Positions 5,872 to 58,277 of a stretch of 64,000 bases of DNA are shown here, piece by piece. Under the pieces are notes generated by a model. It saw nothing but the letters and a program-made list of their open reading frames with translations, was not told the origin of the DNA and ran no database searches. The translations under genes were made by a program, and so were the position numbers. Origin of the DNA: Methanolinea sp. (lineage in GTDB: Archaea > Halobacteriota > Methanomicrobia > Methanomicrobiales > Methanospirillaceae); contig JARYMB010000007.1 in the NCBI GenBank assembly GCA_029907345.1, positions 1 through 64,000 of the forward strand. Direction: 5' to 3'. Each line of letters starts with the position of its first letter. Position 1 is the first letter of the stretch.

Positions 5872-5930
5872 CTGGAGGTTCTAAAATTATCTTTGGGAGT
5901 TGTCAAAAAAGAGGGATGCCCATCCAGCGC

Positions 5931-5956
5931 ATGACCCGGGGACAATTCCGGGTCAT
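5931..5956. terminator. bidirectional hairpin between convergent genes
   Basis: A 9-bp inverted repeat, ATGACCCGG/CCGGGTCAT, has an 8-nt loop and is followed on plus by TTTCCTTTTT. It lies between the Cache lipoprotein gene and the convergent surface-protein gene, whose stop codon is inside the right arm. Confidence 0.55.
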
Positions 5957-7131
5957 TTCCTTTTTACTATCCCAAAGGCCATCAGGGTTATCACGATTGC
6001 AAATAGGGCTGCTGCGGGGAAGATGCCGGCCTTCGGTGTGGGAGATGCTGCCGCAGTGATTTGACTCGCCGTTACCGTGGTTACTGTGGCAGTCATGGTT
6101 GTCTCTGTTGCAATATTCTGTGTCTTGACGATGCCGATCGGCCGGACCAGGGCGTATATCCCTCCCTTACCGAGAGGTGCAGTGACGTGGTTCCCTGCAA
6201 CCACCGATGGCAGGAGGATCCAGGAATCACCGGAAAAGAAGGCTACAGCGGTATTATTTCCAGCCTCGGTTTTACCGGGGGAGAATAAAATCTCTCCCGG
6301 CGGAGAAAAGACTGTTTCGTAGGGTACAATGGCATAGGGACCGGTAATGACCTCCATCCCCTCGGGTGCACCCGACGAGGGGACCTTGACAATGCTGATC
6401 CGCATGCCCAAAGGCACGCTGACTTTCACGGCCTCATCGACAGACAAGAAGGAGACCGTTTCCTGGGACACTGATGGTCCGGGAGAGGATGTCTGACCCG
6501 GTGACAGGGGTGGCTCTCCTGACCCGACAGGGATAGTTTTGTAAAGAACCTGGGCTCCATCCACCAGGGCGGCCAGCGTGATCGTGCCGGAAGGCAGACC
6601 GTTGACCACGAACCCGATCTCGGAATCCACAGGGCCCTGTTTGACCCCAGTCACCTGGAACCGGGTGGTCATCGATCGCGCTGACGGAAGCGTCGTCCCG
6701 GAGAGGCGGAAATAGTCATATGTTCCGGCTGTAATATCGTAAGATTTCGTGGTGGTGAACCGGCCGTCGGTTGACTTGCCGGAGACACTCACGATAGTGT
6801 CCTCTTTTTTTACCTCAAGGCGGTTTTGCGACGTTCCCTCCAGTGTCGCAGTGATACTCCCCTGCTTCAGGGAGAAAGGCATTTCGAACTGGCTCATCTG
6901 GAACTGGAACTCGGTATTGGGAGAAACATCATACGTTGTTTCCACGAGGAGTGAGAATTGCGCTCCGTCCGGAAGGTTGGTGATTGTCACAAAGAGTGGA
7001 TGACCATTTGAGACGGTCTCAGGCCGCCCGGTAATGGTCACCGATACGGCCGGGATGATGAGAAGAGAGAGGAAGAGAAGAACAGCCAGAGTCCTCCTTT
7101 CATGCATTTCACTTATAACAGGTATTTCCAT
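5953..7131 (-). CDS. secreted surface protein with C-terminal membrane anchor
   Basis: Not recognised as a named family. It has an N-terminal signal segment (RRTLAVLLFLSLLIIPAVSV), a roughly 320-residue beta-rich extracellular part, a Ser/Thr/Pro-rich stretch (ATETTMTATVTT...) likely to be glycosylated, and a C-terminal hydrophobic segment ending in KRK. That is the usual layout of a membrane-tethered archaeal surface protein. The start is uncertain: ATG at 7131 is used, ATG at 7107 also gives an intact signal peptide, and a TTG at 7155 is possible. It follows wecB after 53 bp and could be cotranscribed. Confidence 0.75.
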   Translation of the reverse strand: MEIPVISEMHERRTLAVLLFLSLLIIPAVSVTITGRPETVSNGHPLFVTITNLPDGAQFSLLVETTYDVSPNTEFQFQMSQFEMPFSLKQGSITATLEGTSQNRLEVKKEDTIVSVSGKSTDGRFTTTKSYDITAGTYDYFRLSGTTLPSARSMTTRFQVTGVKQGPVDSEIGFVVNGLPSGTITLAALVDGAQVLYKTIPVGSGEPPLSPGQTSSPGPSVSQETVSFLSVDEAVKVSVPLGMRISIVKVPSSGAPEGMEVITGPYAIVPYETVFSPPGEILFSPGKTEAGNNTAVAFFSGDSWILLPSVVAGNHVTAPLGKGGIYALVRPIGIVKTQNIATETTMTATVTTVTASQITAAASPTPKAGIFPAAALFAIVITLMAFGIVKRK

Positions 7132-7184
7132 AAAGGATTCTGGATTCCCTCCCAAGAAAAACTTTCCCGGTCTTTATTCCCCTT

Positions 7185-8261
7185 TCAGAACCTTTCCCGA
7201 AGTACTTCAAGGATCCGGTCGGCCGCATGCCCATCGCCGAATGGATTTTTCCAGTCCCCCCTCCTCCCGATCATTGCAAGGCCCTCCCTGACAATTCGTA
7301 ACGGATCGGTCCCTGCAAGCACGTTAGCCCCTGCATCTATGGTTTCAGGCCTCTCGGTGTTCTCCCTGAGGGTAACGCACGGTACTTTTAGAATGCAGGC
7401 CTCTTCCTGGACTCCTCCGGAATCGGTCAGGACCAGGCATGAAGAAGCCTCAAGACGGAGGAATTCGAGGTATCCAACAGGGGGAATGGTGAAGAGACCA
7501 TCGCTGTCAAGTGCAAACACATCCATCATCTTCCGCGTCCGGGGGTGAACCGGAAAGACAACGGGCAATCCTGTCTCATTGCCAAGGCTCTTTAAACCTT
7601 CCAGTATACCCCTCAGGTTCTCCTTTGCATCCACATTTTCTGCCCGGTGGGCCGTTGCAAGGATAAAATGACCTTCTTTTAATCCGGCAGTACCGGTTAC
7701 CCGGCCTGCTTTTCTCCTCGAAATGTCCAGGTTCTGGAACACGGCATCCACGATGGTATTTCCGGAAACGTGAATCTTTTCCGGGTCAATACCCTCGGAG
7801 AGAAGGTTCCGTTCTGCCATATCCGTGGGTGCAAAGAGGTACGTTGAAATGTGGTCGGTTACGACTCGGTTGATCTCTTCGGGCATTCTCCTATCGAACG
7901 ACCGTAACCCGGCCTCGATGTGGGCAACGGGAACATGGAGTTTTACCGCTGCCAGTGCCCCGGCAAGGACCGTATTTGTGTCTCCCTGCACAAGGACTGC
8001 GGAAGGAGTATTGGCATTGAGGATTCTCTCGACCCCCGCAAGGATTGTACCCGTCTGCCTGGCATGTGACCCTGATCCCGCATCCAGGGTATATTCAGGT
8101 TCCGGGAGCTGGAGTTCCTCGAAAAAGATCCGGTCCATCTCGTACGAGTAATGCTGGCCGGTATGGATGATGGAGTAAGGTACATTCTCCCTCTCGAAGA
8201 GGCGGATGAGAGGACTGCACTTGATGATCTCGGGGCGCGTGCCGAGGACGAAGGTGAACAT
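7185..8261 (-). CDS. wecB: UDP-N-acetylglucosamine 2-epimerase (non-hydrolysing)
   Basis: Interconverts UDP-GlcNAc and UDP-ManNAc for surface glycan or N-glycan synthesis. Family motifs are present: GTRPEIIK at the N-terminus, HTGQHYS, HIEAGLRSFDR, the UDP-binding TDSGGVQEEA, and RENTERPET. Length about 358 aa is standard. ATG at 8261 fits the family N-terminus better than a GTG three codons upstream. Followed by a surface-protein gene and preceded by a membrane hydrolase gene on the same strand. Confidence 0.93.
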   Translation of the reverse strand: MFTFVLGTRPEIIKCSPLIRLFERENVPYSIIHTGQHYSYEMDRIFFEELQLPEPEYTLDAGSGSHARQTGTILAGVERILNANTPSAVLVQGDTNTVLAGALAAVKLHVPVAHIEAGLRSFDRRMPEEINRVVTDHISTYLFAPTDMAERNLLSEGIDPEKIHVSGNTIVDAVFQNLDISRRKAGRVTGTAGLKEGHFILATAHRAENVDAKENLRGILEGLKSLGNETGLPVVFPVHPRTRKMMDVFALDSDGLFTIPPVGYLEFLRLEASSCLVLTDSGGVQEEACILKVPCVTLRENTERPETIDAGANVLAGTDPLRIVREGLAMIGRRGDWKNPFGDGHAADRILEVLRERF

Positions 8262-8349
8262 GTCTTGCACAGGGTATGTGATTCCGCGATTAATGAATCC
8301 GTTGGATCATCGCTCTCCCTCATGCTGGATGAAACGACAGGTTCCCCCC

Positions 8350-9060
8350 TCATTGCAGGTTTTTTAAATGCTTCTCTCCTCCCTGCATGAACCCTGCATA
8401 TTCCATTGCCAGGCAGATCGCCCCTCCAAGAAGGACGAATGCAACAATCAGGCTATCGGACCGGGAATCCCAGCCTGAGAGCGGACAGAACGATCCACCC
8501 AGGGCACAGATCACCAACCACAGTGCAGCAAAGCCAAGGATGAGTGACAGTCCTGCCACAAGTGGCGCCCGTGCACACCCGGCCCCGAGAAACCAGGCAC
8601 AAAGGAAGAGGACGGTGATTCTGATTCCTGCAAGCCATTCTGCAGGCTGAAGAACATCAGCGAGGATATACGGGATTATCTCTATCTCCTTTCCAGGAGG
8701 GAAAGGTCCCATGAATGGCCAGAACCAGGTTGCAGGTGACTGCCACATCGCATCGAGGATCTGGTGGAGGAGAAATCCCATGCTAAGTGCGATCAGTATC
8801 CCGGTGTTCCTGGTGGACCTTCGGAGGAATGCCCACAAAACAACCCCGATACCGAGGAGAAAAAGCCCCATCACGAGTGCATGCGAGTAAATCCTTCCGT
8901 ACCCAATAGTACCCGAGATTGCAAGTCCGAGTGGCTTGTCCACGAGGTCAGGGAGGATTGCGCCCAGCGTGCATGCGATGGTCATCCGCCTGTCCCCGGT
9001 GGAACGTGAGAGGAGTGTCCCAAGAAGGATGCCCGAGAGGAGATGGCACATCACATACAT
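8350..9060 (-). CDS. membrane-bound metal-dependent hydrolase-like protein (DUF457/YdjM-like)
   Basis: Polytopic membrane protein with about six hydrophobic segments. Conserved His and Asp residues (CHLLSG near the N-terminus, LPDLVDKP, a SHAL motif and HQILDAMW) match the pattern of membrane metal-dependent hydrolases of the YdjM/DUF457 group. Catalytic activity and substrate are unproven in that family. A TATA-like GATATATC on minus is centred near 9088, about 27 bp before the ATG at 9060, suggesting a leaderless transcript starting here. Confidence 0.7.
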   Translation of the reverse strand: MYVMCHLLSGILLGTLLSRSTGDRRMTIACTLGAILPDLVDKPLGLAISGTIGYGRIYSHALVMGLFLLGIGVVLWAFLRRSTRNTGILIALSMGFLLHQILDAMWQSPATWFWPFMGPFPPGKEIEIIPYILADVLQPAEWLAGIRITVLFLCAWFLGAGCARAPLVAGLSLILGFAALWLVICALGGSFCPLSGWDSRSDSLIVAFVLLGGAICLAMEYAGFMQGGEKHLKNLQ

Positions 9061-11517: not shown

Positions 11518-11836
11518 GTTTTCATATCTGGATTGCCGCAGAGACTATAAAAATCATGCATAAAACCGGTCCGCGATACCTTTCATCATCATGGTGAAAA
11601 GAGAGAAGATGATTATGCGATGGTAAAACAGGAATCGCATATTTTTATGAGTCGCCGGGGTGCTTTTTTTCATGGAAGGAAAGGAATTGGTGCCTGATAT
11701 GCATATCAGCTGATTGACAGGAGAAAATTTGAATGTTGAAAGGGTAATAACCCTGAATTAAATATTCTTCCTGCCCATTATTCTTAGGTCAAAAGTCCTT
11801 GTGGATTTTTGTCCAGTCGGAATGGATCAGAGAATT
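11518..11836. other. intergenic region upstream of the PEGA gene and tRNA-Gln
   Basis: No gene seen. It contains the PEGA promoter (TATA near 11543-11551 on minus), a perfect 16-bp palindrome at 11694-11709, a shorter palindrome GGGTAATAACCC near 11741-11752 and the A+T-rich segment TTAAATATTC at about 11758-11767 that may contribute to the tRNA promoter. Confidence 0.6.
11694..11709. promoter_or_regulatory. perfect 16-bp palindrome
   Basis: CTGATATGCATATCAG is exactly self-complementary and lies in a gene-free interval about 180 bp upstream of the PEGA start and about 130 bp upstream of the tRNA. It could be a dimer-binding operator; nothing else supports that role. Confidence 0.35.
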
Positions 11837-11909
11837 ACCCCCGTAGTGTAGCGGTCAATCATGCAGGACTTTGGATCCGGCGACACCAGTTCGAATCTGG
11901 TCGGGGGTA
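11837..11909 (+). tRNA. tRNA-Gln (anticodon TTG)
   Basis: Cloverleaf with acceptor stem ACCCCCG/CGGGGGT, U8-A9, anticodon loop CTTTGGA (TTG at positions 34-36) and T-arm ACCAG-TTCGAAT-CTGGT. CCA is not encoded. The anticodon stem CAGGA/TCCGG has an A28-G42 mismatch; the other four pairs are intact. No intron. Confidence 0.92.
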
Positions 11910-12431
11910 TCTAAACGTCAAGTTCTATACTCTCCTTTTCCCTATCGCGCAAATAATCGCCCCTGCGACCGACCCCTCCCACGACCCCGCCCCTACCAAC
12001 CCGAACGGTCGGGGCCTCCACCCCGGCGCCCCTCTTCCTGCGGCATGGGACCCCTGCCCCATGCGATTCCTCCCTCTGGTCAGAATCTCATCGCAGGAGA
12101 GAGGAGACCAGAGAGATCTTGATACACAATAACGGGGCAACGTGCTCGCTCTGCTCCATCTCCGTCCGCTCCTCCTCCCAGTCCGGTGCTCCTCCATTTC
12201 GCTATACTCGCACTATGCCCCTGATTTTCTCTTCCTAATCCTGATTCACTGACGCTCCCGGCTTTGTCGTTCCACTCCTTTCCGGCAGCTGTTCCATCCC
12301 GTTCCTTGCATCGTGCTTTGCACCAGGCTCGTCGCTGTTTACCGGACAATGAAGACGCTCAGTGACTCGCTCCTTTCGGTCGCTCGGGCCGTTGCGGTTG
12401 TTTTGTTGGCACCACCACCATTTGACTGGAA
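11910..12431. other. gene-free region downstream of tRNA-Gln
   Basis: About 520 bp without a credible gene. The first part is C-rich on plus (CCCCTCC, CCCCGCCCC runs). The rest is mixed composition and shows no codon structure in any frame. No duplicate of the tRNA 3' end was seen to mark an integration site. Could be decayed sequence at the edge of the accessory region. Confidence 0.5.
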
Positions 12432-13739
12432 TTAGAGCAAGCACTTGGAGTTCTTATCTCTGACCTTCTTAATAGCTAGTGCTGCAATACACCCCGCAAT
12501 CAGTGTGAAGCAGGTAAAACCCGGTGATGATGCCGAAGGCATTACTTCACCCTTATCAAGTGAATTGGTCGCAGGAGTCAGAGAGTTGCCGTTTCCCGGA
12601 CGGGTATCCGTGCCGGATACGGTCTCTTCAGGCTGGGAGAAGAGGATAAAGAGGACGACCTCGCGGGGCTCCCTTGACCAGTCTTTTCCTGCGCCCCGTG
12701 TGAAAATTACCCGTTCCCCTGAGATAACCGGATGGGAAAGCCCACGCTCGAAAGGAGTGATCTGGCTTTTTTCTCCTGTGTGTAGGTCCATTATCATGAC
12801 CGCGCTTCTGCTATCCCTGAAATCGAGAGGATTCATAGACTGTAACCATACAACCCGGTCATCCGAGACGGAAGGAAGATGCCCCTGGTGCACGCTTCCC
12901 TGACCTATAACGGTCCTGGTCCGGGAAGAGATGGAGTAATGAACAATCGTATGGATCCCATGGATCTTTTCTGTCCAGATCACATTGTCACCGGAGAGAT
13001 ACGGATTGCTCTCTACAGGATTTTCCGTTGGCAGACGTTCCTCTTTTCCGTTCTTCAGATCATAGAGGTACAATTCCTGGTCATCCGGACCACTGGAGCG
13101 GTAGTCTTTCCACAGTATGAAATTACCTGATATCATAGGGGTACTCTGGTTGCCCGGTGAACCAGTCGGGAGGTACCGTCTCTCCCCAGTTGTCAGATTG
13201 AGGATGACGATCTTTCCCCCGTCAACACTTGAGTGGGCAATTCCCTCGTGTTCGGTCCAGATAACCCGGTCCCCGTCAATACAAGGATTCTGATTGAACC
13301 TGAGATCGGATACAGGGAGAACCGCATCATTCTGGTTGGTGAGTTGAACTGCAGATCCTGTTGAGAGATTTATGAGTATGATCCCTTTTTCGCTGAACAC
13401 AAGCCGATCACCTGATGTTCTTGCTGTTTCAACCTGATGCATTATGGGAATCGTACCGTCTGAACTCATTTGCCCTTTTTCTCCGATCCGAACGAGTTGT
13501 CTTTTCGTCCCCTCTGTTAGGTTATACCCATAAAACCCCCGTTCTGACGCATTCAGGTACGTGTTATCCTGTATCCAGAAGAGTTGATCCTCCTCTAGGA
13601 TCATGTAGAATGGCTCCCCTGATAGAGTGAAAAGCACTGTTTCGGTCCCAGATACCGGTTCTGCACTTGTGACCAAGGGAATAGTGACCAGACAGATGAC
13701 GATTATCAGGAGGCCGCTGGAATGTCGATGGTTATTCAT
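12432..13739 (-). CDS. exported TolB/WD40-like beta-propeller protein with PGF-type anchor
   Basis: Signal peptide (LIIVICLVTIPLVTSAEP), then about 350 residues of repeating blade motifs of the form (I/V)SGxxxxW(K/T)(D/E)...(L/I)YLYDLxxGxExxLP, i.e. a TolB-type propeller of probably six or seven blades. The C-terminus has a Ser/Thr-rich linker, then SPGF followed by a hydrophobic segment and a basic tail (KKVRDK). This is the PGF-CTERM layout processed by archaeosortase A in other archaea, which would link the protein to membrane lipid. Ligand unknown. First gene of the secreted-protein region. Confidence 0.82.
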   Translation of the reverse strand: MNNHRHSSGLLIIVICLVTIPLVTSAEPVSGTETVLFTLSGEPFYMILEEDQLFWIQDNTYLNASERGFYGYNLTEGTKRQLVRIGEKGQMSSDGTIPIMHQVETARTSGDRLVFSEKGIILINLSTGSAVQLTNQNDAVLPVSDLRFNQNPCIDGDRVIWTEHEGIAHSSVDGGKIVILNLTTGERRYLPTGSPGNQSTPMISGNFILWKDYRSSGPDDQELYLYDLKNGKEERLPTENPVESNPYLSGDNVIWTEKIHGIHTIVHYSISSRTRTVIGQGSVHQGHLPSVSDDRVVWLQSMNPLDFRDSRSAVMIMDLHTGEKSQITPFERGLSHPVISGERVIFTRGAGKDWSREPREVVLFILFSQPEETVSGTDTRPGNGNSLTPATNSLDKGEVMPSASSPGFTCFTLIAGCIAALAIKKVRDKNSKCLL

Positions 13740-13753
13740 GGCTGAAAAAATGG

Positions 13754-14389
13754 TTAGTGGAAGCTGAACACCGAAGTGTCGTCATAGTCATCAGCATAGT
13801 AGGGCGTTGGAATATACCCCCATGCATGGACATAGTACTGGCCATTCGCAGGATATAACTTATCTTTCGATGCGGTGACTGACCATACCCCCTGTTGTGA
13901 ACTTGCCGATGTCGAATCCACGGTCTGTCCGGTCCCCCGGTTAATCAGGAACGCTTCGACATAGATATACCAGGGAGGTCCCTCCAGTCCCGATGCAGTA
14001 CAGGTTCCTCCAAAACGGATGGTTCTCCAGTCAAACTTATATCCGGTCGCACTGACAGAAACAGTGGCACGATCCAGGGCCGGCTGTTCATCGTTGGTAT
14101 CGTTGTCCGGTGCAGGCTCCGTGCTCCACCAGGTCATCTTCTGACCGGCCATATTCTTCCTGTATGAATCGGGAATCCCGACAAGGTGTTCCGGGTGGAC
14201 CTTTTCCATATATTCAAGAACGGTAATGTCCTTGCCATAGAGCTCATTGATTAGGCTCAACTGCTCTGTAGTGGCATCCGATCGGACGACTCCCTTCTCG
14301 TCTTCCGCACTCGCTACACCGATCAGTGCAGATGCAAACAGCAGGATCAGCATGAAAACCGATCCTGTTTTTATTCCATAGAGTTTCAT
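13754..14389 (-). CDS. secreted protein of unknown function, under leader copy A
   Basis: Start at ATG 14389, directly preceded by GGAAGGAG within the conserved leader; an in-frame upstream extension to 14509 lies wholly inside that leader and is rejected. The product (211 aa) has a signal peptide (VFMLILLFASALIGVASAED), a helical segment with ELYGKDITVLEYMEKVHPE, and a beta-rich C-terminal half with several Trp and Tyr and two Cys-free sheets. No catalytic motif is recognised. It shares its leader, but no visible protein sequence, with the genes behind leader copies B and C. Confidence 0.75.
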   Translation of the reverse strand: MKLYGIKTGSVFMLILLFASALIGVASAEDEKGVVRSDATTEQLSLINELYGKDITVLEYMEKVHPEHLVGIPDSYRKNMAGQKMTWWSTEPAPDNDTNDEQPALDRATVSVSATGYKFDWRTIRFGGTCTASGLEGPPWYIYVEAFLINRGTGQTVDSTSASSQQGVWSVTASKDKLYPANGQYYVHAWGYIPTPYYADDYDDTSVFSFH

Positions 14390-14657
14390 GATTTTGCTCC
14401 TTCCGGGCTTTATGCGATGCGTCGATTTCGAGCCCGGATTTATGACAGCAGGGAAAGCATCCTGCCTTCCGGAAAGCTGTCGGGTGATGAGGGACTTGCC
14501 CTCACCCACTATGGGTAATTGGATCCAGGTGCATAAACGATCTCTGTGCCAGATCCAGAACTGTCAGCAGAATGATTCGGAGTAGAGCACGTGACGGTAT
14601 TGATGATTCTCCGTATCAATGATTCTCCCGGATGAGCCCGGTCTGCATCTCGATCCC
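14390..14657 (-). ncRNA. conserved structured 5' leader, copy A
   Basis: Full-length copy of a repeat found three times. On minus it runs from a probable transcription start (TATA-like TTTTAAAAT at about 14671-14679) to the ATG at 14389. Inverted repeats (plus coordinates): 14403-14409/14431-14437 (CCGGGCT/AGCCCGG, immediately upstream of the ribosome-binding site on the transcript), 14444-14449/14476-14481 enclosing 14452-14458/14464-14470, 14482-14493/14499-14507, 14520-14525/14552-14557 and 14599-14604/14615-14620. About 94% identical to copy B and 97% to copy C over shared parts, counted by eye. RNA function is inferred. Confidence 0.6.
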
Positions 14658-14765
14658 GGCCGGAATGATATTTTAAAATCATGCACATTCCCGAAGATTA
14701 CGAATTCGCCATCCCAAGTCTGCAAGTGCGATTTCGATTGCTGCTGTTTTTTATTGGTGTACCAT

Positions 14766-15005
14766 TTCAATCTCCCTCTTCGTCATTTTAAGTGGGTAAG
14801 TTGCATGAGTGCATGACATTCTTTCTTCGTTTTGAATTGGTTTATTCAAAGAAGAAACATAGACTTTCTATGAAACCCTTCGTGAAACCGCCGCCGGGGC
14901 GCCCTTCGGGGGCGGCGGAACCATCCTCATGTGGGGGTGTGGGGGCGACCAGCCCCCACATTGGGTTCTCATTACCCACTCAGATTAGCGAAGAGCCTTC
15001 AATCT
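14766..15005. repeat. 8-bp target-site duplication flanking the MITE
   Basis: TTCAATCT occurs at 14766-14773 and again at 14998-15005, directly abutting the two ends of the 224-bp element. An 8-bp duplication is the size made by ISL3-family transposition. Confidence 0.8.
14774..14997 (+). mobile_element. MITE of the ISL3-like family, copy 1
   Basis: A 224-bp non-coding element with imperfect terminal inverted repeats of about 26 bp (outer CTCTTCG, inner AGTGGGTAA at both ends). Its left end is identical over about 30 nt to the terminus of the transposase-bearing element at 1-456. The inside is G+C-rich with self-complementary stretches (GCCGCCGGGGC/ GGCGGC). It lies between two secreted/membrane protein genes. 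It should be mobilised only in trans by an intact family transposase. Confidence 0.85.
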
Positions 15006-15109
15006 ACTCCTTGCACGAAAGTAATCATCATAACCGTTAATAGGACAATCACCGGATCACTGAAAATCCCCCTGGAACATAAGGGAGCATTAAAGCCTGT
15101 CAGTGTCCC

Positions 15110-15661
15110 CTACACTGAAGCCAACTTCCCGGAAAAGCGATAATAGAGGGCAACTCCCCCGTACACGAGCGATGCAATAACCACAGCCTCGATGAATAGG
15201 ACCGACAGAAATACTATGGGAGAGTACAAGTTCGGGAGGGCGCCGGACAAAACTCTCACAAGTCCAGCCTGGTTCACCACCTCTGCGACGAATAAGTAAA
15301 AAAAAGTTATTATTGACGTTTCGAAAACGTAAATCCAGGATTTTGTTTTGGGCAACCTCCTTTCGAACAGGGGAAACGGAGTGATCGTTCCCATGGAGAT
15401 TAAGGCGCCGAAGAGCAGCCAGCTTATTGCAGCGACAAACCCCACTGTTTTATACAGCATCTCCAGTCCCGGGCCGGCTGTCGAGAGGATGACAGCGATC
15501 ACGATGAATATAACTGGGGGAAGGATCAGTCGTACGAATTTTATCCGGACTTTGTTTATCACTACGAAAAACAAAGACGAGAGGAGTGAGTAGAGTATCG
15601 AGGGTATACCGATAAGAAGCAGAATAACGATAAATCCCCGGAACCATTCTATCGGGGTCAC
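15110..15661 (-). CDS. polytopic membrane protein of unknown function
   Basis: 183 residues with about five hydrophobic segments, at roughly 8-33, 42-62, 70-92, 110-130 and 148-172. No motif of a known family is recognised. There are few charged residues apart from short basic loops (NKVRIKFVR, ERRLPKTKS), which would place those loops inside. It sits between the MITE and the phospholipase-like gene, in an A+T-rich stretch, and has no obvious operon partner. Confidence 0.65.
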   Translation of the reverse strand: MTPIEWFRGFIVILLLIGIPSILYSLLSSLFFVVINKVRIKFVRLILPPVIFIVIAVILSTAGPGLEMLYKTVGFVAAISWLLFGALISMGTITPFPLFERRLPKTKSWIYVFETSIITFFYLFVAEVVNQAGLVRVLSGALPNLYSPIVFLSVLFIEAVVIASLVYGGVALYYRFSGKLASV

Positions 15662-15717
15662 GATTTCTCACCGTATTAGAAATGGAAACGGCATATTCAT
15701 CTTTTCCCGGTCGAATT

Positions 15718-15733
15718 TTTTTAAAAAAATGGT
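15718..15733 (-). terminator. T-tract terminator after the phospholipase-like gene
   Basis: On minus, a run of seven T followed by seven A lies a few bases after the stop at 15741, forming a small A/T-only inverted repeat; U-tracts terminate archaeal RNA polymerase. Confidence 0.45.
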
Positions 15734-15740
15734 ATGTAGT

Positions 15741-16910
15741 CTAATCCCGCACATAGTTCACCAGTCCGAGGGTATGCTTCGACGTATCTATCAAAACATT
15801 GGAGGTGATCATGTAGGTGTTGGGATCATTCTGCAACGTGTATGGATTGTTGTAGACGTAATAATACAGGGTATTCAATTTCGTATTTGAATACTGGGCC
15901 AGCGATTGAGCGGATACGAAGGGATCGGTCATTGGATAGTAGTACCAGTTGTTTGTGACGAAGTAATTGAACGCATATGGACCAGAGGGCGGTGCGGTGG
16001 ACCAGTACGAATTGACATAACCTTCGTAATTGTTGTGTACCCACGAATACAAGGGTGGTGACCAGGGGGGACTGATTCCTTGGAATAGCTGTTCGGCCTC
16101 CTTTCCGGTATGGAGAGGATTCCCGAGATCGGTCAGGAAATGACTTGAATATCCCAACTGCTGATAAGCGAGCGAATTATATCCAAGGTCGAGGTTTGAT
16201 TTTCCCAGATCCGCGTAGTAGTCGCAATAATACCTTCCCTGACCCAGCCATGAGAGTGAGGGATCAGGATTCCAGTAATGATTTATAAGATTGTATGGAA
16301 ATGTCCAGAAGGAATCCGGTATTGGCGCTGATGAAGTTGCCTGGTTCCGGTAATACGAATCAACGCCCCATTTCCAGCACGAATCATTTATAATCATTGA
16401 ATGCTCGTTCCCTGACCATTTCGGATTGTTGCCGTCGCTGAAAAGGTCATTGAGATATCTTGTTATCTCAGAATCGACTTTTTTGAGTCCTTTTTGCTCC
16501 TCATCTGTTAACATGAGTCCCTGTTCTTTCCCTTCAATGGAAATATAGGTATATCCATCGCTTTTTGCAAATTTTACAGGATATTTCTCCCACATCTTCC
16601 AGAGGAAATCGGCCATCCACGATTTATCCTCGTTCGAGGCATAACATTCATCAATTGCACGAAGCATATTGGCCTTACCATCGCTGTTCAGGATGAGGAG
16701 CATGTAATATGGGGTTTCCCTTTCAAGGAGAGGGTCCCATGTGACGAACTCCATATCTGAATAGAATTCTTTTACATCGCTGTTAGCGACAGAAATCGGA
16801 ACCGGTCCTCCAATTTCATTGACAGCGGCCGCGGCGCTCACGCATGGTACCATCGCCATTCCTGCCAGCAGCAGCGCCAGCAGAACGGCTCTAAATTTCA
16901 TTGCTTTCAT
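15741..16910 (-). CDS. secreted zinc-dependent phospholipase C/P1 nuclease-like protein
   Basis: Signal peptide (FRAVLLALLLAGMAMVPCVSAAAA), then about 360 residues rich in Tyr, Trp and Asn. Key segments are NEHSMIINDSCW, NHYWNPDP and HFLTDLGNPLH. The last matches the H-x3-D-x3-P-x-H zinc-binding pattern of phospholipase C/S1-P1 nucleases, and a further His lies in WVHNNY. The fold assignment is moderate; lipid versus nucleic-acid substrate cannot be decided. Start set at ATG 16910 (GAGTGAAAAG upstream); an extension to 16964 would spoil the signal peptide. Leader copy B lies about 240 bp upstream. Confidence 0.68.
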   Translation of the reverse strand: MKAMKFRAVLLALLLAGMAMVPCVSAAAAVNEIGGPVPISVANSDVKEFYSDMEFVTWDPLLERETPYYMLLILNSDGKANMLRAIDECYASNEDKSWMADFLWKMWEKYPVKFAKSDGYTYISIEGKEQGLMLTDEEQKGLKKVDSEITRYLNDLFSDGNNPKWSGNEHSMIINDSCWKWGVDSYYRNQATSSAPIPDSFWTFPYNLINHYWNPDPSLSWLGQGRYYCDYYADLGKSNLDLGYNSLAYQQLGYSSHFLTDLGNPLHTGKEAEQLFQGISPPWSPPLYSWVHNNYEGYVNSYWSTAPPSGPYAFNYFVTNNWYYYPMTDPFVSAQSLAQYSNTKLNTLYYYVYNNPYTLQNDPNTYMITSNVLIDTSKHTLGLVNYVRD

Positions 16911-17538
16911 CTTTTCACTCTCTGTTTTTTCGATACGTTCCGCTCGGCAATCTGGATCAATCACCAGCGGAACCGGGAAGGATTCAGATGGTGTGCAAAT
17001 TTCTATGAATCCTGCCGTTTCTTATTGGATATCTTAAGATTGTCCGCATTGGTGTTCGTGACTATGGCACCAAATAATTTCTGTCCACATCCTCAAACTG
17101 CCAGTTTGATGATTTGGAAACAAACTGGGAACCATTTACAGTCATTGACGTCAATCCCGAGCCCGGCTATACAACAGCAGGGAAAACATCCTGACTTCCG
17201 AAATGCTGTCGGGTGATGAGGGACTTGCCCTCACCCTACATGGATAATCGGATCCAGGTGCATAAACGATCTCTGTGCCAGATCCAGAACTGTCAGCAGA
17301 ATGATTCGGAGTAGAGCACGTGACGGTATTGATGATTCTCCATATCAATGATTCTCCCGGATGAGCCCGGTCTGCATCTCGATCCCAAACAGTCCATGGG
17401 TGTGATCATATTCACGATTCATTAAAACGGAATCCATGCGTCATTCAGGTGTTTTCCAGGTAGTGTGCATATAAAGAGAAATCATACATGAACGAGAAGA
17501 TCTCCCCCTTATATTTCAGGCAACGGTCGACGAGTCAT
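16911..17538. other. intergenic region containing leader copy B
   Basis: No gene. 17148-17386 is the leader repeat. The interval 16911-17147 between that repeat and the phospholipase-like gene is unique A+T-rich sequence with possible minus-strand TATA boxes around 17027-17037 (AATAAG, TTAAGATATCC), so the gene may have an additional proximal promoter. Confidence 0.55.
17148..17386 (-). ncRNA. conserved structured leader, copy B
   Basis: The core 17158-17386 is exactly as long (229 bp) as 14429-14657 in copy A, with about 14 differences by eye. The distal 145 bp differ at a single position. It lacks the portion with the ribosome-binding site, so it is not fused to a start codon. A TATA-like GAATATGATC on minus near 17404-17413 would place transcription start near the conserved boundary. 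The GACAGC/GCTGTT stem is kept through a G-U pair; one internal pair of the nested stem is lost. It may be a solo or partly decayed copy. Confidence 0.55.
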
Positions 17539-18072
17539 TTAATATTCCAGTTCATTCACCTTTCCGCTTACATTCACCGTAATCCAACCCCGATGAGTAA
17601 CGATGGGAGTCATGTTCATATTGACACGGAATAAGTAATCCCCTTCCGGGAGTTGCGGTTCGGTGTATATGATAAGCGTGGAGACGTACGTCCCATTGGG
17701 CGATACGACATACTCGGACGGTGACATGCTTACATTCAGGTATCGCGGCATTGGAATTTCCTCATCAGAATTTACTGATTTCTCTTTTACCGGGACTATC
17801 CGCTGTGTGACCAGCCCCTGACCCTTCGCTCTCGTATTGAGAATTATCTGTTCCTCTTTTATCTCCCCCGCATGTATCTCTATCCTGCTAGGATGAAACC
17901 ATACCGGAATCCCCAAATGTTGTTTCCCTGGCGTCACACTTGGGGGTTCCCATGTTTCGTTCCTCCTATCTATTGATGAGATGTCTGTAATTTGGCTGGT
18001 AATGAGCGATAATACGCTGATTAACAGGATAAGAGTCGCAAAGACCAAAAAAAATAGCGTGGTTTTTTTCAT
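17539..18072 (-). CDS. membrane-anchored extracellular beta-sandwich protein, unknown function
   Basis: An N-terminal transmembrane or signal segment (TTLFFLVFATLILLISVLSLI) is followed by a roughly 145-residue beta-rich domain resembling Ig-like or fibronectin-like surface modules. Regular alternation of hydrophobic residues and N-glycosylation sequons (NVS, NGT, NMT, NVS) support an extracellular location. The first segment lacks a clear cleavage site, so the protein is probably tethered by its N-terminus. The gene lies 17 bp after the stop of the frameshifted gene at 18090-19179 and may be cotranscribed with it from leader copy C. Confidence 0.65.
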   Translation of the reverse strand: MKKTTLFFLVFATLILLISVLSLITSQITDISSIDRRNETWEPPSVTPGKQHLGIPVWFHPSRIEIHAGEIKEEQIILNTRAKGQGLVTQRIVPVKEKSVNSDEEIPMPRYLNVSMSPSEYVVSPNGTYVSTLIIYTEPQLPEGDYLFRVNMNMTPIVTHRGWITVNVSGKVNELEY

Positions 18073-18089
18073 CCCAGGTATTTCTCCGT

Positions 18090-19179
18090 TCAGTTTGCCG
18101 TGTGCAATGTCACCATCGAATCGGAATAGATCTGAACATCCAACCCGGAAAGATACTCCTCTGCAACTTCATCAATGTCTTCTTCCCAATTAAATTCCAC
18201 ATTCTGTAAATTCAGATCTTTCAACCGCATATCGTAGAATGTCGTGTCGCCCGGCACTTCTGAGTCGCCATCGACATAATATCCTTCAAGAGTGCAAAAG
18301 ACTGCATTATTCTGGTAACCAACACATCCAGACCAGTTCATGGTCGAAATGGCGGAGTCTTCATTCTTGAATATGATATTCCATTGACTGAGACCAGGGT
18401 TCCAGCCCAATGTTCCCTTAATAGTATCGCCAACGTCAACATCGATTGGTTCACTATAATAACCCTCCTGTTGATATGGGACAAACCATGCCGCGCCTGT
18501 CCAGTCACGATACGCATGTCTGTTCCATTCAAGGACCGGTTGCACTATTCCCTGCCCGTTTGAAGGCTCTATAGCATTGAAGAGAAAAATAACTGAGTCA
18601 GACTGCGAAGACGGTGATGAAGGTACATCCCAATAGGCGATAAACTGTGCGATCTCATCGATGCTCCAATTATTTGCTTGTTCAATCCATCCCTCATAAG
18701 AAGGATACGGCAATTCTTTCTCGGTGCCCCAGCAACCAAGAACGGTCAAAATACAGACCTCATCTTTGTAAACTTTCGTCATATTGTTCTGTGTGATAAT
18801 ATCCGATCCACTTGGAACCCTATGAACATGGGTAACCGGTAATAATCCAGCAGATGGAACAGGCACCTTTTTTTGAAAAAGCATCTATAGCGGATATAAT
18901 CTGTGTCCCTTCAGGAGTAAATACGCGGGTAATTCCATCGGACGAATGTTGAATTATTGCACCAACAGGAATGGAATAGAGATTTTTACCTTCCGCTGGA
19001 CTCAATTCTCCATTTAAAATTACAGGTTCTGACGATTCATCGATCTTCAGTTCAGGCTGGGCCCATTGAGGAGAAAGCGCACTCACCCCCGGCACTATAA
19101 CACTACCCATCAGTACTACTACGATGAGAAGTATACCTCCACTGAATGTACCTTTTTCTTTCATCGTTCTTTCCGCCAT
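18090..19179 (-). pseudogene. secreted jelly-roll-like protein, frameshifted at an A7 run
   Basis: Two overlapping frames together make one protein of about 362 residues. The first (19179 downward) encodes a signal peptide (GGILLIVVVLMGSVIVPGVSALS) and continues to DAFSKK. The second resumes with VPVPSAG after removing one base at the run of seven A (plus 18868-18874). The C-terminal 250 residues have YEGWIEQANNW, an EWN segment and DVGDTIKGTLGW, similar in character to secreted beta-sandwich proteins (peptidase A4/G1-like) of methanogens. Catalytic residues are not identified. This could be a true mutation, phase variation at the homopolymer, or a sequencing error. Confidence 0.7.
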
Positions 19180-19196
19180 TTCTCTTCTGATTTCAC

Positions 19197-19368
19197 GATT
19201 TCGCTCCTTCCGGGCTTTGTGCGATGCGTCGATTTCGAGCCCGGATTTATGACAGCAGGGAAAGCATCCTGCCTTCCGGAAAGCTGTCGGGTGATGAGGG
19301 ACTTGCCCTCACCCTACATGGGTAATCGGATCCAGGTGCATAAACGATCTCTGTGCCAGATCCAGAAC
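19197..19368 (-). ncRNA. conserved structured leader, copy C
   Basis: Shares 172 bp with copy A (14390-14561) with about six differences, including the ribosome-binding site next to the gene and the four proximal stems. The distal 100 bp of copies A and B are absent. Instead a short inverted repeat TCGCGA at 19373-19378/19384-19389 leads into the TATA box at 19401-19410. The codon corresponding to copy A's ATG is GTG here (19196) but is out of frame; the gene's ATG is 17 nt further on. Confidence 0.58.
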
Positions 19369-19400
19369 TATTTTCGCGACGATTCGCGATCCGGCACAGA

Positions 19401-19412
19401 AAGGTTATAAAC
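19401..19412. promoter_or_regulatory. near-symmetric TATA box shared by divergent genes
   Basis: GGTTATAAAC reads as a TATA element on both strands (TTATAAAC on plus, GTTTATAACC on minus). It lies about 65 bp before the regulator ATG at 19473 and would start leader C near 19380. One element may serve both directions. Confidence 0.5.
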
Positions 19413-19472
19413 GTCTCTGGCGAGATCTGAACAATGCCGGGTGGTATATCTTCAGAAGGGAAGGAGGGTATC

Positions 19473-20258
19473 ATGGAGAACCGTCAATCACATCGATTTC
19501 ATACCGCCCTTTCCATGATGCTATGGATTCTGTTTTTCGGATTTTGCGTCCTGGAACTGGTCTACATCCCCCTCTTCGGCGTCGATGGCACGGGGGTGCC
19601 TGTCCCCCGGTGGCAGATGAGGCCGTCCGATCTCATCTGCCATATGGTCCATTCCGTATCCCCCACTCTTGTGGAGCCGATACAGATCCTCCTTTTCTGG
19701 GGAATCGGATTCGGGGCTTATTTTGGATTCCGCACCATCTCGAAAAAAACTGTACTTGACAATACTGCAAGGCTGCAGGTCTTCAACACAATCCGGGAAT
19801 CCCCTGGCATTCACTTTTCGGCGCTTCGTGACCGGACCGGTTTGAACCGGGGGACACTCCGCTACCATCTCTCCATTCTGGCACTGACCGGGAAGATCAC
19901 CTCCTTCCGGGACGGAATATTCTCACGGTATGTCACCAGCGAGAGGAGTATGTCAGCATACGACCGTATCGTGGCATCCAGGTTCCAGAACGGACCCGAC
20001 CGGAAGATCCTAACCTACCTTCTCGATCACCCGGACTCGTCCCAGCGTGATATTGCCAGGGCTCTCGGTGTCGTACCATCGGTGGTGAACAGCCGGATAC
20101 GGCAACTGTACGATGAAGGGATTGTTGCAATGGTGCGTCTTGGCAGAACCACACGGATTGCTCTGACCGATGACTCTGTCGAGGTGATCAGGAGGATCAA
20201 AGGTGCAGGACCATGTCGAGATCCCACTTGGGCACCAGCCCCTGAAATCCCTGGATGA
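19473..20258 (+). CDS. membrane-anchored regulator with two winged-helix domains
   Basis: Two hydrophobic segments (about residues 13-36 and 71-90 of the 261-aa product) put the C-terminal part in the cytoplasm. The first winged helix (about 100-160) includes GIHFSALRDRTGLNRGTLRYHLSIL; the second (about 175-250) includes SQRDIARALGVVPSVVNSRIRQL. Start at ATG 19473 has a strong AAGGAGG site. It is paralogous to the gene at 23346-24509 (shared RxITxKTVL and TLRYHL). It is divergent from the leader-C gene across a single TATA element, so it may control the secreted-protein genes; that is inference. Confidence 0.83.
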   Translation: MENRQSHRFHTALSMMLWILFFGFCVLELVYIPLFGVDGTGVPVPRWQMRPSDLICHMVHSVSPTLVEPIQILLFWGIGFGAYFGFRTISKKTVLDNTARLQVFNTIRESPGIHFSALRDRTGLNRGTLRYHLSILALTGKITSFRDGIFSRYVTSERSMSAYDRIVASRFQNGPDRKILTYLLDHPDSSQRDIARALGVVPSVVNSRIRQLYDEGIVAMVRLGRTTRIALTDDSVEVIRRIKGAGPCRDPTWAPAPEIPG

Positions 20259-20954
20259 AATGTCTATTCCTGCCTCTCTCCCTTGCCCCTCCCGAAAGAT
20301 TCAATTGACAAGTCAAGGAATTGGAACGAACTTCTTTTTGATGAGAAAAATATCAGTTCAATGCCAGAAAATCCAAGACCTGGAGTCTGTTCGGATTCCT
20401 ACACAGAGATCGTTTAAACAATCGGCTCTTCGCTCATCTAAGTGGGTAGTGAGAACCGAATGCGGGGGCTGGCCGCCCCCACACCCCCCACCCATGAGGA
20501 TGGTCCCGCCGCCCCTAAAAGGTGCGCCCCGGCGGCGTTTTCACGAAGGGTTTCATAGAAAGTCTATGTTTCTTCTTTGAATAAACCAATTCAAAACTGA
20601 GAAAGAATGTCCTGCACTCATTCATCTTACCCCTCCAAAATGATGAAGAGGCGTTTTATTCAATGTCCGTGTATTCTTCTTTTATAACCAAATCAAAGAA
20701 TCCTTTTTAAAAAGACTCCGCCCGGAGATCGCATCCAAAGACTGGCAGGATTGGACCGTTCAAAAAGCTGCCGGGAATGATTATTTGTCACATCGGACTC
20801 ACTTGCATATATCTGCACTTGACTAAAATTCTCTACCGGAAGGAAATTGTGGACACAATGACGGGGCAGGCTGCAATAATCAGTTTCATATCTGATATTT
20901 CCGGATTTCGTCATGGCTCAGGTTCAGGGAAAAACCGATCAGATGCCCACCCCC
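20259..20954. other. intergenic region with MITE copy 2
   Basis: 20424-20652 is the second MITE. The remaining parts show no convincing gene. 20653-20954 is A+T-rich with scattered short open frames lacking ribosome-binding sites. The 3' end of the transporter gene is at 20955. Confidence 0.55.
20424..20652 (-). mobile_element. MITE of the ISL3-like family, copy 2
   Basis: Inverted relative to copy 1 and similar to it along the whole 229 bp, including the G+C-rich core and the stretch around GAATTGGTTTATTCAAAG. Differences are spread throughout, with the terminus reading GGCTCTTCGC on one side and GAAGAGGC on the other. No flanking 8-bp duplication is recognisable, so this is likely the older copy or one affected by rearrangement. 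Confidence 0.82.
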
Positions 20955-21851
20955 CTAACCCCACAGCGCGATGAGAACAGTCCCCGTCACCATCACGACG
21001 GTCCCAAAGGTCCTCTGCCGGATACAACCCTCCCTGAAGAGGTACCCCCCTATGATGACTCCGAAGAGGACCGAGAGCCTCTTTATTGCAATTACATAGG
21101 GGACGAGGGACAGGGTATATGCCGTATTTATTGTTACCGCCTCCAGGGTCAGGACAAGTCCGAGTGCAGGCATGAGCAGACCTGTCCCTTTAATCTCTCC
21201 CCGGGCAGCAGGGGGAACTGCTTTTCCGGACAGTATCGGGATCGAGGTCTGAAGGAGAAACACGCATGCAAGGAGCCCGAAGACGACAGAAGATCCAAAG
21301 ACGGGGTCGGACCGTTCCACGACGACCTTGTCGTAGTTAACCGATATGCTGTAGAGGAATGCTACGATGAGCATGAACCGGACACCCCTATCCGAGAGGA
21401 GAAAACGGAATGGTCCCATCCAATCCCCGGCCCTGCCGGGGGTACCATCAGCCGCAAGCAGGTATGACCCTGCAGCAACCAGGATGATACCTGCAAGGCC
21501 TGCAATGCTCGGGACCTCATCGAGTATCACAAAAGAGGTTATGAGCAGGAAAACGGGTGTGAAGGAGAGTAGGGGAAGGCAGAGAGAAAGGTCAGAGAGG
21601 GAGAGTGCCCTGTAAAAGAGGACGGTTGCAAATGTGTTGATCGCAACAGTGACAAGGACGGCTTCTGCAAAACCCGGTCCGATCGACGGAAATCCCCTTA
21701 CGATGGAAATGGCGGCGAGGGATGCTGCAGCGACGAGAAAAGATCCCCCGGCAACCTGTGCAGGAGGCACCTGACGAAGGAGTACTTTTGCTCCCGCAGA
21801 GTACATCGCCTGGGCCATCGCACCCGCAAGGGCAAGGGGAAACCATAACAT
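20955..21851 (-). CDS. EamA/DMT-family transporter
   Basis: 298 residues with ten predicted transmembrane segments in two five-helix halves, the drug/metabolite transporter layout. The first half ends near DGTPGRAGDW and the second starts at RFMLIVAF. EamA signatures include NTFATVLFYRALSLSDLSLCLPLLSF-type and the corresponding second-half TINTAYTLSLVPYVIAIKRLS, which are kept short here. The substrate is unknown; such proteins export amino acids, nucleotides or other metabolites. It stands alone on this strand. Confidence 0.85.
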   Translation of the reverse strand: MLWFPLALAGAMAQAMYSAGAKVLLRQVPPAQVAGGSFLVAAASLAAISIVRGFPSIGPGFAEAVLVTVAINTFATVLFYRALSLSDLSLCLPLLSFTPVFLLITSFVILDEVPSIAGLAGIILVAAGSYLLAADGTPGRAGDWMGPFRFLLSDRGVRFMLIVAFLYSISVNYDKVVVERSDPVFGSSVVFGLLACVFLLQTSIPILSGKAVPPAARGEIKGTGLLMPALGLVLTLEAVTINTAYTLSLVPYVIAIKRLSVLFGVIIGGYLFREGCIRQRTFGTVVMVTGTVLIALWG

Positions 21852-23345: not shown

Positions 23346-24509
23346 CTACGTTTCTGCGGGTGAACCGCGAGGGAGATGGCTATTGCAGGCGAGAACAGAC
23401 TCCCTGGACGGGTACTGGTGAACGGAACAGCCGTCGATAACCGCGGGATGAGCAAGTATGGGCGGTGTCAGGTAATGGCAGGAAAACCTCCCCTGTTTCC
23501 TCACCTCCACAATTCCATCGTGGGAGAGGTTCTGGATGTGGCGTGTGACGGAAGGCCCTGCAATCCCGAGGGTTGTTGCAAGCGCCTCCCTTGTCATCCC
23601 GGGTGATTCGGCCAGGGCCAGGATGATTTTTCTGGTCGATTCACCCCGGAGGTAATGGAAGAGACACTGGAGGCGGGGCGGGAAGAGCCCGTTGTTTACG
23701 AAGTAGCGGACGGTACCGGGGCGGGAAAAGTAAGTAATCTTCTCTTCCCGTGCAAGGGTGAAGAGGTGGTAGCGAAGCGTATTGATATTCATGCCAAGGA
23801 GGGCTGCAAGCGCCGGGGCATCGAGGCCGGGATTTTCAGCAATTGCAGTGTAAACGCGGTTCCGTTCAGAACTGGCAAGGACCGTTTTTCTTGTTATCCT
23901 CCGGTAACCAAGAGCCGGTAAAAAGGGCGCAGGAACCGGGTACCCGGGGAGAGGGGGGCTCCCGCCATCATCCTCGGCATCACCCTCTTCGCGCCTTACC
24001 CGCGGCATACCGGGAGATACGTGGGCAGAGGGTTCTGCGGGACCTCCGGCGGGCAGGGGACCTGACGTCTCGGCAGGTCCGCAGGGATACCGGTCCTGAA
24101 TAGGGACAGGTACAGAATGCCACGGGCCGGGGGAATGCGGGTTGCGGGGCATAGGACTCCGAACGGGTCCTGCACCATTGCCCGGGGAGGAGGATGGGGC
24201 CGCGGTTCCCGTGAGACGGCCCACCAGGGGAGAAGGACCGCCAGACGGGTTTCCGGCACTGTTCCCGGAGAGAACCGGTCCTTTCCCCTGACTGTTTTTG
24301 GGCGGGGAGATGGAAGGGTCTGGAACGCCCTGCATGGCATTGCCGGTATTGGCAGCACCGTTTCCGTGCTGGATTCCCTTACCCTCCCCCAAACCAAACT
24401 GGTTGGGGTTTGCGTGGCCTCCTCCCCCGCCGGCAGCACAGGCAGGGTATGCAATAATGCAGATGAAGAGCAGGACAACGATGGCAGGGATATACCAGGC
24501 GATGCGCAT
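23346..24509 (-). CDS. membrane-anchored two-winged-helix regulator with Pro/Gly-rich linker
   Basis: One N-terminal hydrophobic segment (WYIPAIVVLLFICIIAYPACA), then about 165 residues of Gly/Pro/Ser/Asn-rich low-complexity sequence. Two winged-helix domains follow, at about 205-280 (LDAPALAALLGMNINTLRYHL) and 290-355 (MTREALATTLGIAGPSVTRHI). Paralogous to 19473-20258, but with the second membrane segment replaced by the linker. For the DNA-binding part to be cytoplasmic, the single segment must be N-out/C-in. A GTATATATAA box at 24531-24540 lies about 27 bp before the ATG, so the mRNA is probably leaderless. Confidence 0.8.
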   Translation of the reverse strand: MRIAWYIPAIVVLLFICIIAYPACAAGGGGGHANPNQFGLGEGKGIQHGNGAANTGNAMQGVPDPSISPPKNSQGKGPVLSGNSAGNPSGGPSPLVGRLTGTAAPSSSPGNGAGPVRSPMPRNPHSPGPWHSVPVPIQDRYPCGPAETSGPLPAGGPAEPSAHVSPGMPRVRREEGDAEDDGGSPPLPGYPVPAPFLPALGYRRITRKTVLASSERNRVYTAIAENPGLDAPALAALLGMNINTLRYHLFTLAREEKITYFSRPGTVRYFVNNGLFPPRLQCLFHYLRGESTRKIILALAESPGMTREALATTLGIAGPSVTRHIQNLSHDGIVEVRKQGRFSCHYLTPPILAHPAVIDGCSVHQYPSRESVLACNSHLPRGSPAET

Positions 24510-57379: not shown

Positions 57380-58264
57380 GTGACCTTTATATCGGACTTT
57401 TCGCGCGCTGCAGGCGTCCTTGCGGGGCTTGCAATTGGTGATGCATTGGGTGCGCCCTTCGAGGGAGGACCACCTCCGGGGGTGGCCGTCCGCTCGTTCT
57501 TCGCGGGGGGCAGAAACCCGCGGAAAGCAGGGGAATTCACGGATGACACGTTCCAGGCGCTTGCCCTGGCCGAGTCTCTCGTTGCATGCCGCGGTTTTTC
57601 CCCGGAGGACTTCATGGTCAGGCTCGTGAGGGACTATTCGCTGCACCGCGGGTTCTACGGCCCGACCTCGGCCGCGGTTTTTTCCCTCGTCCGGAAGGGA
57701 ACCGGCATCCACGAAGCGGCGTCCCGCGTCCATGCCGCCCGGGGATGGAGCAGGAGCAACGGGAGCGTGATGCGGGGTGCGCCGATCGGGGTCTTTTACT
57801 CCGGCCCGGAGGTGGAAGCGGTCTCGTACGCATGTTCTGCGCTGACCCACGCGGACCCGGTGCCGGGGGCCTGCTCGGCGTTCGTGAACCGCATGGTGAG
57901 CGACATGTGCCGGGGCATCTCCCGGGCTGTGGCACACGGCCGGGCTCTGCGGAGGTGCCGCGATGCCGAGGTCGCCCGGATGCTGGGGTGCTACGAGTCC
58001 GCCACCCCTGTTGCCGGCCTCGATGCGCTCGAGGCGACGCACGCCGCCCTCACGGTCTTCATGCGCTCGGACAGGTTTTCCGACTGCGTCTCCCTTGCTG
58101 TCGGCCTTGGCGGCGATACCGACACGGTGGCTGCAATCGCGGGTGCCCTTGCGGGAGCCCTGTACGGTCTCGACGGGATACCCCCTGAATGGGTGGCACA
58201 CCTCGCAGGCCGGGAGAGGGTGCTTTCCGTTGCCCATGCCCTCTGGTCCGGACGACGGGGATGA
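57380..58264 (+). CDS. ADP-ribosylglycohydrolase family protein
   Basis: About 294 residues. Removes ADP-ribose from arginine or other sites; Mg2+ binding motifs are GEFTDDT near residue 55 and GGDTDT near 255 (both Asp-rich), with further matching blocks GLAIGDALGAPFEG and SVMRGAPIG. GTG 57380 puts the N-terminus where the family usually begins, but ATG 57344 (12 extra residues) is possible. Divergent from the UPF0058 run across a shared promoter region. Confidence 0.87.
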   Translation: MTFISDFSRAAGVLAGLAIGDALGAPFEGGPPPGVAVRSFFAGGRNPRKAGEFTDDTFQALALAESLVACRGFSPEDFMVRLVRDYSLHRGFYGPTSAAVFSLVRKGTGIHEAASRVHAARGWSRSNGSVMRGAPIGVFYSGPEVEAVSYACSALTHADPVPGACSAFVNRMVSDMCRGISRAVAHGRALRRCRDAEVARMLGCYESATPVAGLDALEATHAALTVFMRSDRFSDCVSLAVGLGGDTDTVAAIAGALAGALYGLDGIPPEWVAHLAGRERVLSVAHALWSGRRG

Positions 58265-58277
58265 GCAGGCGGGGTTT

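Follow-up and report, generated by a model that had tools for sequence, protein, structure and literature searches.

The stretch between gene C and the regulator gene raises the question of whether one TATA box serves two divergent genes or whether each gene has a promoter of its own, and of which protein acts there. The locus lies in the first 64,000 nucleotides of contig JARYMB010000007.1 of Methanolinea sp. (assembly GCA_029907345.1), here called the window, in which gene C (ATG 19179, minus strand) and a gene for a regulator with two winged-helix domains (ATG 19473 or 19434, plus strand) are transcribed away from each other, as an earlier sequence-only reading had held. That reading placed a single symmetric TATA box between them and suggested control of leader C, and perhaps of leaders A and B, by the regulator. 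Judged from sequence comparison, the interval 19300-19473 probably represents, with a likelihood of about 65%, two separate back-to-back promoters, each with a box TTCNNGATCYGGCACAG, that belong to a local regulon bound by the regulator. No description of the region was found among the literature matches listed. The coordinates of the features are collected in the table.

Features of the divergent control region, its regulator and the surrounding block in the window
Feature	Positions	Strand	Remarks
Leader A promoter: GATCTGGCACAG + AGATCG + TTTATGCA	14530-14555	-	From alignment and geometry
Leader B promoter, identical in sequence to that of leader A	17259-17284	-	From alignment
Gene C, secreted protein of unknown family	18090-19179	-	Frameshift near 18880 in its own genome
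Predicted 5' leader of gene C	19180-19314	-	Can be folded as three hairpins, with covariation no higher than in shuffles
TTTATGCA, TATA-like box of leader C	19337-19344	-	TTTAT in 12/12 leaders; predicted start ~19314
Leader C promoter box GATCTGGCACAG	19351-19362	-	Left arm of inverted pair; 12/12 columns invariant, 8 loci
TCGCGA-CGAT-TCGCGA inverted repeat	19374-19389		Between both promoters; missing from leaders A and B
Regulator promoter box GATCCGGCACAG	19388-19399	+	Right arm of inverted pair; 9/12 columns invariant, 8 loci
Box GGTTATAAAC	19403-19412	+	Read best as the regulator TATA (TTATAAA, 19405-19411); predicted start ~19434
Regulator	19473-20258	+	Hydrophobic N-terminal part, then two winged helices; 19434 is a second in-frame start
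Gene D promoter remnant, GTTC..TTC..CACAGAGATCGTTTAAA	20389-20418	+	Precedes secreted-protein gene D in relatives
Block homologous between genomes, in differing surroundings	11922-20423		From locus comparison
Repeat of ~229 bp	20424-20652		Right after the gene D promoter remnant

The genome of the window (G000) comprises 1.86 Mb and is 88% complete, and the relatives compared with it are metagenome-assembled genomes. Thirteen genomes of the genus, including G000, G003, G004, G005 and G008, were scored for leaders and regulator orthologues. Two loci, L121 and L122, are near-identical repeats of L120 and were omitted from the column counts over eight loci, and their four leaders were omitted from a leader comparison for the same reason. 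A match in Bavariicoccus (L125), covering 39 residues at 49%, was discarded as unrelated. Two divergent regulator copies each are present in RA.bin51 (L118 and L122) and in 1-no_shock_S1_004 (L123 and L124), and these pairs are either genuine doubles or mixed strains.

On the regulator side, the GGTTATAAAC box of the sequence-only reading is present, though 2 nt away from the 19401-19410 given there. It occurs once in the window, and this exact 10-mer, a motif chosen post hoc, is expected 0.02 times per shuffled window. The palindrome is confined to the TTATAA core. The two strands score nearly equally in the window (7.0 plus, 6.9 minus) with a weak profile that was trained on 29 tRNA upstream regions of the same genome and is insufficient to decide alone, and in this sense the proposed symmetry holds for this sequence. 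Seven of the ten columns of the box are invariant across eight non-redundant orthologous loci. Read along the plus strand, the regulator promoter consists of GATCCGGCACAG, then AAAGG, then TTATAAA. Of the two in-frame ATGs of the regulator, the one at 19473 is preceded by a good ribosome site, GGAGGG (19463-19468). In Pyrococcus, the last A of the TATA box lies 23 bp ahead of the transcription start (excerpts of PMC6640164), and if this rule applies here, the alternative start codon at 19434 coincides with the predicted transcription start.

The leader C side has a TATA-like box of its own, TTTATGCA, which is identical in leaders A (14537-14530) and B (17266-17259), both of which have upstream neighbours on the same strand and are hence not divergent. 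TTTAT is common to all 12 aligned leader copies at a fixed spacing, and YAGTTCYGGATCYGGCACAGRGATCGTTTAT is likewise kept in 12 of 12 copies from five genomes, with more variable flanking sequence. The conservation among leaders A, B and C can derive in part from common descent or gene conversion, as they are similar copies. The tRNA-trained profile ranks the minus-strand candidates of the window differently, with AACCTTTCTGTGCC (8.4) above the shared box (6.9) and TTTATGCA (6.1), and in leaders A and B it favours sites further upstream (8.4-9.5). Farther out, a stretch of ~100 bp preceding the A-type box is near-identical in five leaders from four genomes (window 14560-14657 and 17290-17386; L037, L038 and L039) and holds the repeats GAATCATTGATACGG / GAATCATCAATACCG, which are perhaps further sites.

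Several relatives offer natural tests of whether the two TATA boxes depend on each other. In G005, homology with the window stops at 19402, directly before the regulator-side TATA, which is thus absent, and leader C and an open C frame are kept. The converse is found in L123, where the leader C side is replaced right after GGCACAG, so that the leader C box is missing and the regulator promoter is intact with its TATA. Because one locus has one box and the other genome the reverse, the two boxes are separable. In addition, the position of GGTTATAAAC reads TTATAAGC or TTATTAGC in L120, L123 and L124, a change that is probably one event rather than three independent ones. With the same weak profile, the altered box scores 5.6, 5.6 and 7.3 in these loci in the direction of the regulator and 2.9, 2.9 and 2.5 on the minus strand, compared to 6.9 in the window, and the own box of leader C scores 9.6 in L120 and L124. 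L120 is the clean case, since L123 is without leader C and the L124 regulator is interrupted by ~1.1 kb; in L120, gene C and the regulator are intact despite the decayed minus reading.

These comparisons bear directly on the proposal that the symmetric TATA at 19403-19412 fires both ways, in which case leader C would start at ~19384 and the segment 19314-19384 would lie inside a longer leader. There is a documented precedent in Pyrococcus furiosus, where a single TATA box drives transcription in both directions from starts 49 bp apart (excerpts of PMC6640164), and the proposal would also fit the balanced strand scores in the window and the box of L117, which is changed in the other way and reads better on the minus strand (9.3) than on the plus strand (8.1). 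Leaders A and B, which share TTTATGCA, nevertheless have no counterpart of the symmetric box at that place, gene C persists in L120 after decay of the minus reading, and gene C is open in G005 without any such box. A single TATA for both genes is therefore not favoured, given the TTTAT common to the leaders, G005 and the L120 comparison, and joint use of the box is improbable; a weak antisense-type start or weak extra starts from the 19403 box are possible. As far as sequence can tell, the most probable reading of 19300-19473 is a divergent control region of an ordinary archaeal type, conserved sufficiently for a private candidate operator to be defined, which was misread as a single shared TATA.

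The two predicted promoters have a common architecture. Each side has its own copy of GATCYGGCACAG located 5-6 nt ahead of its TATA box, and the two copies face each other as a conserved inverted pair with TCGCGACGATTCGCGA between them, resulting in a mirror geometry in which box, 5-6 nt and TATA follow each other outward on both sides and the TATA boxes are 60 bp apart. The stretch between the arms is invariant at 21 of 25 columns in the eight non-redundant orthologous loci. The regulator-side box is found reversed and at equal distance in all 10 aligned rows, with changes at one of 12 positions in L117 and at three of 12 in L118 and L119. Taken alone, a 12-bp inverted pair appears in 33 of 1000 shuffles. 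The TCGCGA inverted repeat that had been noted beside the TATA box is present (19374-19379 / 19384-19389) but not unusual, with at least as many perfect 6-bp pairs (spacer 0-8) in 180 of 1000 dinucleotide shuffles of 19180-19472. Because of this frequency, the argument for the repeat is its conservation in relatives, with a single-base change to one arm in L118 and L119.

The distribution of the box points to a candidate operator that is private to this locus. The exact 14-mer GATCYGGCACAGRR has four sites in the 88% complete genome of the window, which are those of leaders A, B and C and of the regulator. It is present at least once in 8 of the 13 genus genomes, with 21 matches in the genus, six of which lie outside such clusters, within open frames 165 to 689 codons long; two of these outside matches, L054 (G008) and L059 (G005), have a TATA-like run behind them and are apparently the same coding stretch. 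Allowing up to two mismatches, GATCYGGCACAGARA matches 25 places in the genome of the window versus 7 for the reversed control pattern. None of these places is at exactly one mismatch, and a TATA-like run just downstream is found only at the four exact ones. Leader DNA was not found in 28 other genomes outside the genus. The box of an additional L123 leader, GTTCCGGACCCAGTACAG, has diverged and retains neither TC nor CACAG.

In 35 instances of the promoter (17 of them distinct), drawn from 11 sources, the spacing of TTC, TC and CACAG is constant, for which the free test consists of the upstream TTC and TC only, as CACAG was part of the promoter search key. The same spacing is found at the gene D promoter, which reads GTTC..TTCC..CACAGAGATCGTTTAAA and occurs together with gene D in six non-redundant other loci (L116, L117, L118, L120, L123 and L124; L122 repeats L120 and was not counted). 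No gene D promoter was found in L119, and in the genome of the window gene D itself is not found behind its promoter remnant.

The regulator itself has properties expected of a membrane-anchored DNA-binding protein. Its two winged helices are confirmed by Pfam, the first matching PF24266 (HVO_0163-type; 39.8 bits versus a cut-off of 31) and the second PF13412 (64.1 bits versus a cut-off of 21.9). The membrane anchor is predicted from hydropathy, with one strong segment of 19 residues (mean 2.28), and the predicted transmembrane segment(s) would place the protein among the membrane-bound one-component regulators. A structure model contains long helices at residues 3-31 and 64-87 and is of low confidence (mean pLDDT 55). 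The window also encodes a second two-winged-helix protein (23346-24509), a distant relative in which a hydrophobic N-terminal stretch is followed by a long segment rich in Gly and Pro, and whose DNA-binding part shares 33% identity with the regulator over 142 residues.

Presence of the regulator follows presence of the leaders. Leaders occur in 5 of the 13 genus genomes, and all four genomes that carry a regulator orthologue (at least 91% amino acid identity; G000, G003, G004 and G008) are among them (Fisher p 0.007, uncorrected for relatedness), while neither leaders nor an orthologue were found in the other eight. The exception is G005, which has leaders and in which no orthologue was found; the G005 contig continues for just over 200 nt beyond the arm. 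Putative control of leaders A, B and C would follow from the box that they have in common with the regulator promoter, and this claim of the sequence-only reading gains from the box at all four sites and loses from the leaders of G005 that stand without an orthologue. The box could instead be bound by another factor, such as a related two-winged-helix protein or a repressor, with the regulator gene as a member of the regulon. This would account for the leader boxes in G005, and 12 of the 13 genus genomes encode more remote relatives (~25-35% identity to the regulator, E at most 1e-11) that might fill the role. The orthologue is nevertheless confined to genomes with leaders (four of four) and occurs in none of the eight without, and binding by another factor is accordingly rather doubtful.

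The favoured reading, binding by the regulator itself, suggests the following scheme. Each promoter would consist, going outward, of the box TTCNNGATCYGGCACAG, a BRE-like element of 5-6 nt and its own TATA box, TTATAAA for the regulator and TTTATGCA for leader C. The membrane-anchored regulator would most likely bind TTCNNGATCYGGCACAG as a dimer or higher oligomer and, presumably in response to a signal, switch on its own gene, leaders C, A and B, as well as gene D in the genomes that have it, and the TCGCGA repeat may serve as a second, autoregulatory site. Archaeal activators act just upstream of the BRE. Since the box is located at this position, activation would be more likely than repression.

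The arrangement resembles several known systems. The gvpA and gvpD genes of haloarchaea, with their activator GvpE, have opposite promoters, each with its own BRE and TATA as is probable here, and facing activator elements that adjoin the BRE (excerpts of PMC4390858); here, too, a common element adjoins the BRE on both sides and faces outward. The gvpA and gvpD starts are 108 bp apart, similar to the ~120 bp predicted here (19314 and 19434), and the GvpE elements consist of two 8-nt halves that overlap in the centre (PMC4390858), whereas the 12-bp boxes here are 25 bp apart. Unlike gvpA/gvpD, the present locus has a separate TCGCGA repeat, and its box also precedes further genes. ArnR and ArnR1 of Sulfolobus acidocaldarius are likewise membrane-bound DNA-binding regulators, control surface structures and are associated with inverted-repeat boxes in the flaB promoter (excerpts of PMC6396743). 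In these proteins an N-terminal HTH is followed by HAMP-like and sensor regions and two C-terminal membrane segments (PMC6396743), the opposite of the layout here, where the membrane part is N-terminal and the two winged helices are C-terminal. Their boxes also differ (TCGAC-N5-GTCGA), and ArnR bound two promoters without them (PMC6396743). The bidirectional promoters of Pyrococcus furiosus similarly have a TATA box with a symmetric core that is in principle readable both ways, with starts 49-50 bp apart around one TATA (PMC6640164), unlike the ~120 bp and separate boxes predicted here. Finally, the regulator shares with HVO_0163-type proteins an N-terminal PF24266 winged helix followed by a second winged helix. 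No role of HVO_0163 itself was found among the literature matches listed, in which the name occurs in one paper, a proteomics study.

The sequences behind the two kinds of promoter differ, with the leaders preceding genes for secreted proteins. When folded, the leaders at 19180-19314, 14387-14507 and 17140-17236 are compatible with three hairpins, which are found in many copies. Across 16 distinct leaders, 90.0% of cells are paired under the three-hairpin model, as compared to 40-49% when the model is slid. Covariation is 0.137 against a shuffled mean of 0.133, with 200 of 500 shuffles as high, and single-sequence folding yields a z of -1.68, with 13 of 200 shuffles as stable. Assignment of the leader to a known RNA family was rejected, as the only match at gathering level to Rfam in the 64 kb window is a tRNA. 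The secreted proteins A, B and C (the latter as two split frames) have no Pfam match at E 0.01; the same applies at E 1 to the C and A copies of L120, the A copy of L122 and the B copy of L116, and no NCBIfam match was obtained at E 0.1 for A, B and the C of L120. The gene D product has a sub-threshold Pfam match only. Searches of solved structures at E 1 returned nothing for C and B, and the structure model of gene C has a mean pLDDT of 33. The gene C frame is open in G005 and L120.

The gene behind the regulator-proximal leader varies between genomes, being gene C in the window, G005 and L120, gene B in L116, gene A in L118 and, in L117, the gene of another secreted protein whose signal peptide is B-like. 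L119 has a C with an internal shortening and an A that is fused to the propeller-type protein. A near-identical signal peptide, AVLLALLLAGMAMVPCVSA, together with the preceding DNA, is common to different secreted proteins (window 16820-17124; L117 1667-1801; L123 6147-6437), as if the two were exchanged as a unit. The near-identical leaders would be an obvious substrate for exchange of secreted genes.

The surroundings also change between related Methanolinea-type genomes. In G000, the block is flanked by tRNA-Gln (11836-11911) and an EamA gene (20955-21851), which are ~280 bp apart in G003, ~50 bp in G007 and ~160 bp in G010; this adjacency was seen in 3 of 11 non-self loci, the other eight showing no tRNA within the stretch examined. 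G003 carries the block at another place. In L119, the block (4954-8751) is flanked by stretches that are near-contiguous at 58158-58357 of the window, a site that is empty here and occupied by the block in G008/UBA275. The ~229-bp repeat matches the genome of the window at 38 places, in whole or in part. It is MITE-like, and the copy upstream of leader A (14775-14997) shows inverted ends (at 14776-14995).

An alternative explanation is that the stretch from box to leader is kept not as an operator but as a recombination or mobility sequence for swapping secreted-protein cassettes. The different genes behind the leaders (B in L116, another in L117, A in L118) would be consistent with this, as would the breaks of L123 and G005, which sit at the outer ends of the arms. 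The same box and TATA spacing is, however, also found before the regulator and gene D, where the downstream sequences are unlike the leaders, and a Pfam scan of eight frames from the block returned no recombinase, making this explanation quite unlikely. With the box retained as a candidate operator, the block 11922-20423 may tentatively be viewed as a roaming, self-contained regulon, in which one membrane-anchored switch would govern its own gene and several secreted-protein operons via a private operator. Such a regulon would move between chromosomal sites as a unit and acquire, lose or swap its secreted proteins through recombination between the near-identical promoter-leaders, a possibility that is held with low confidence.

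Few archaeal regulators have a known operator, and in this case a locus-private candidate operator, the promoters that carry it and a candidate regulator all emerge from comparative sequence. Most interesting is the way in which the block, which extends outside the coordinates originally considered, changes in place and content, as it offers a view of an archaeon swapping secreted proteins under one switch. If the view of a roaming regulon is true, it would give archaea an equivalent of the exchangeable surface-protein cassettes that stand under a single promoter type.
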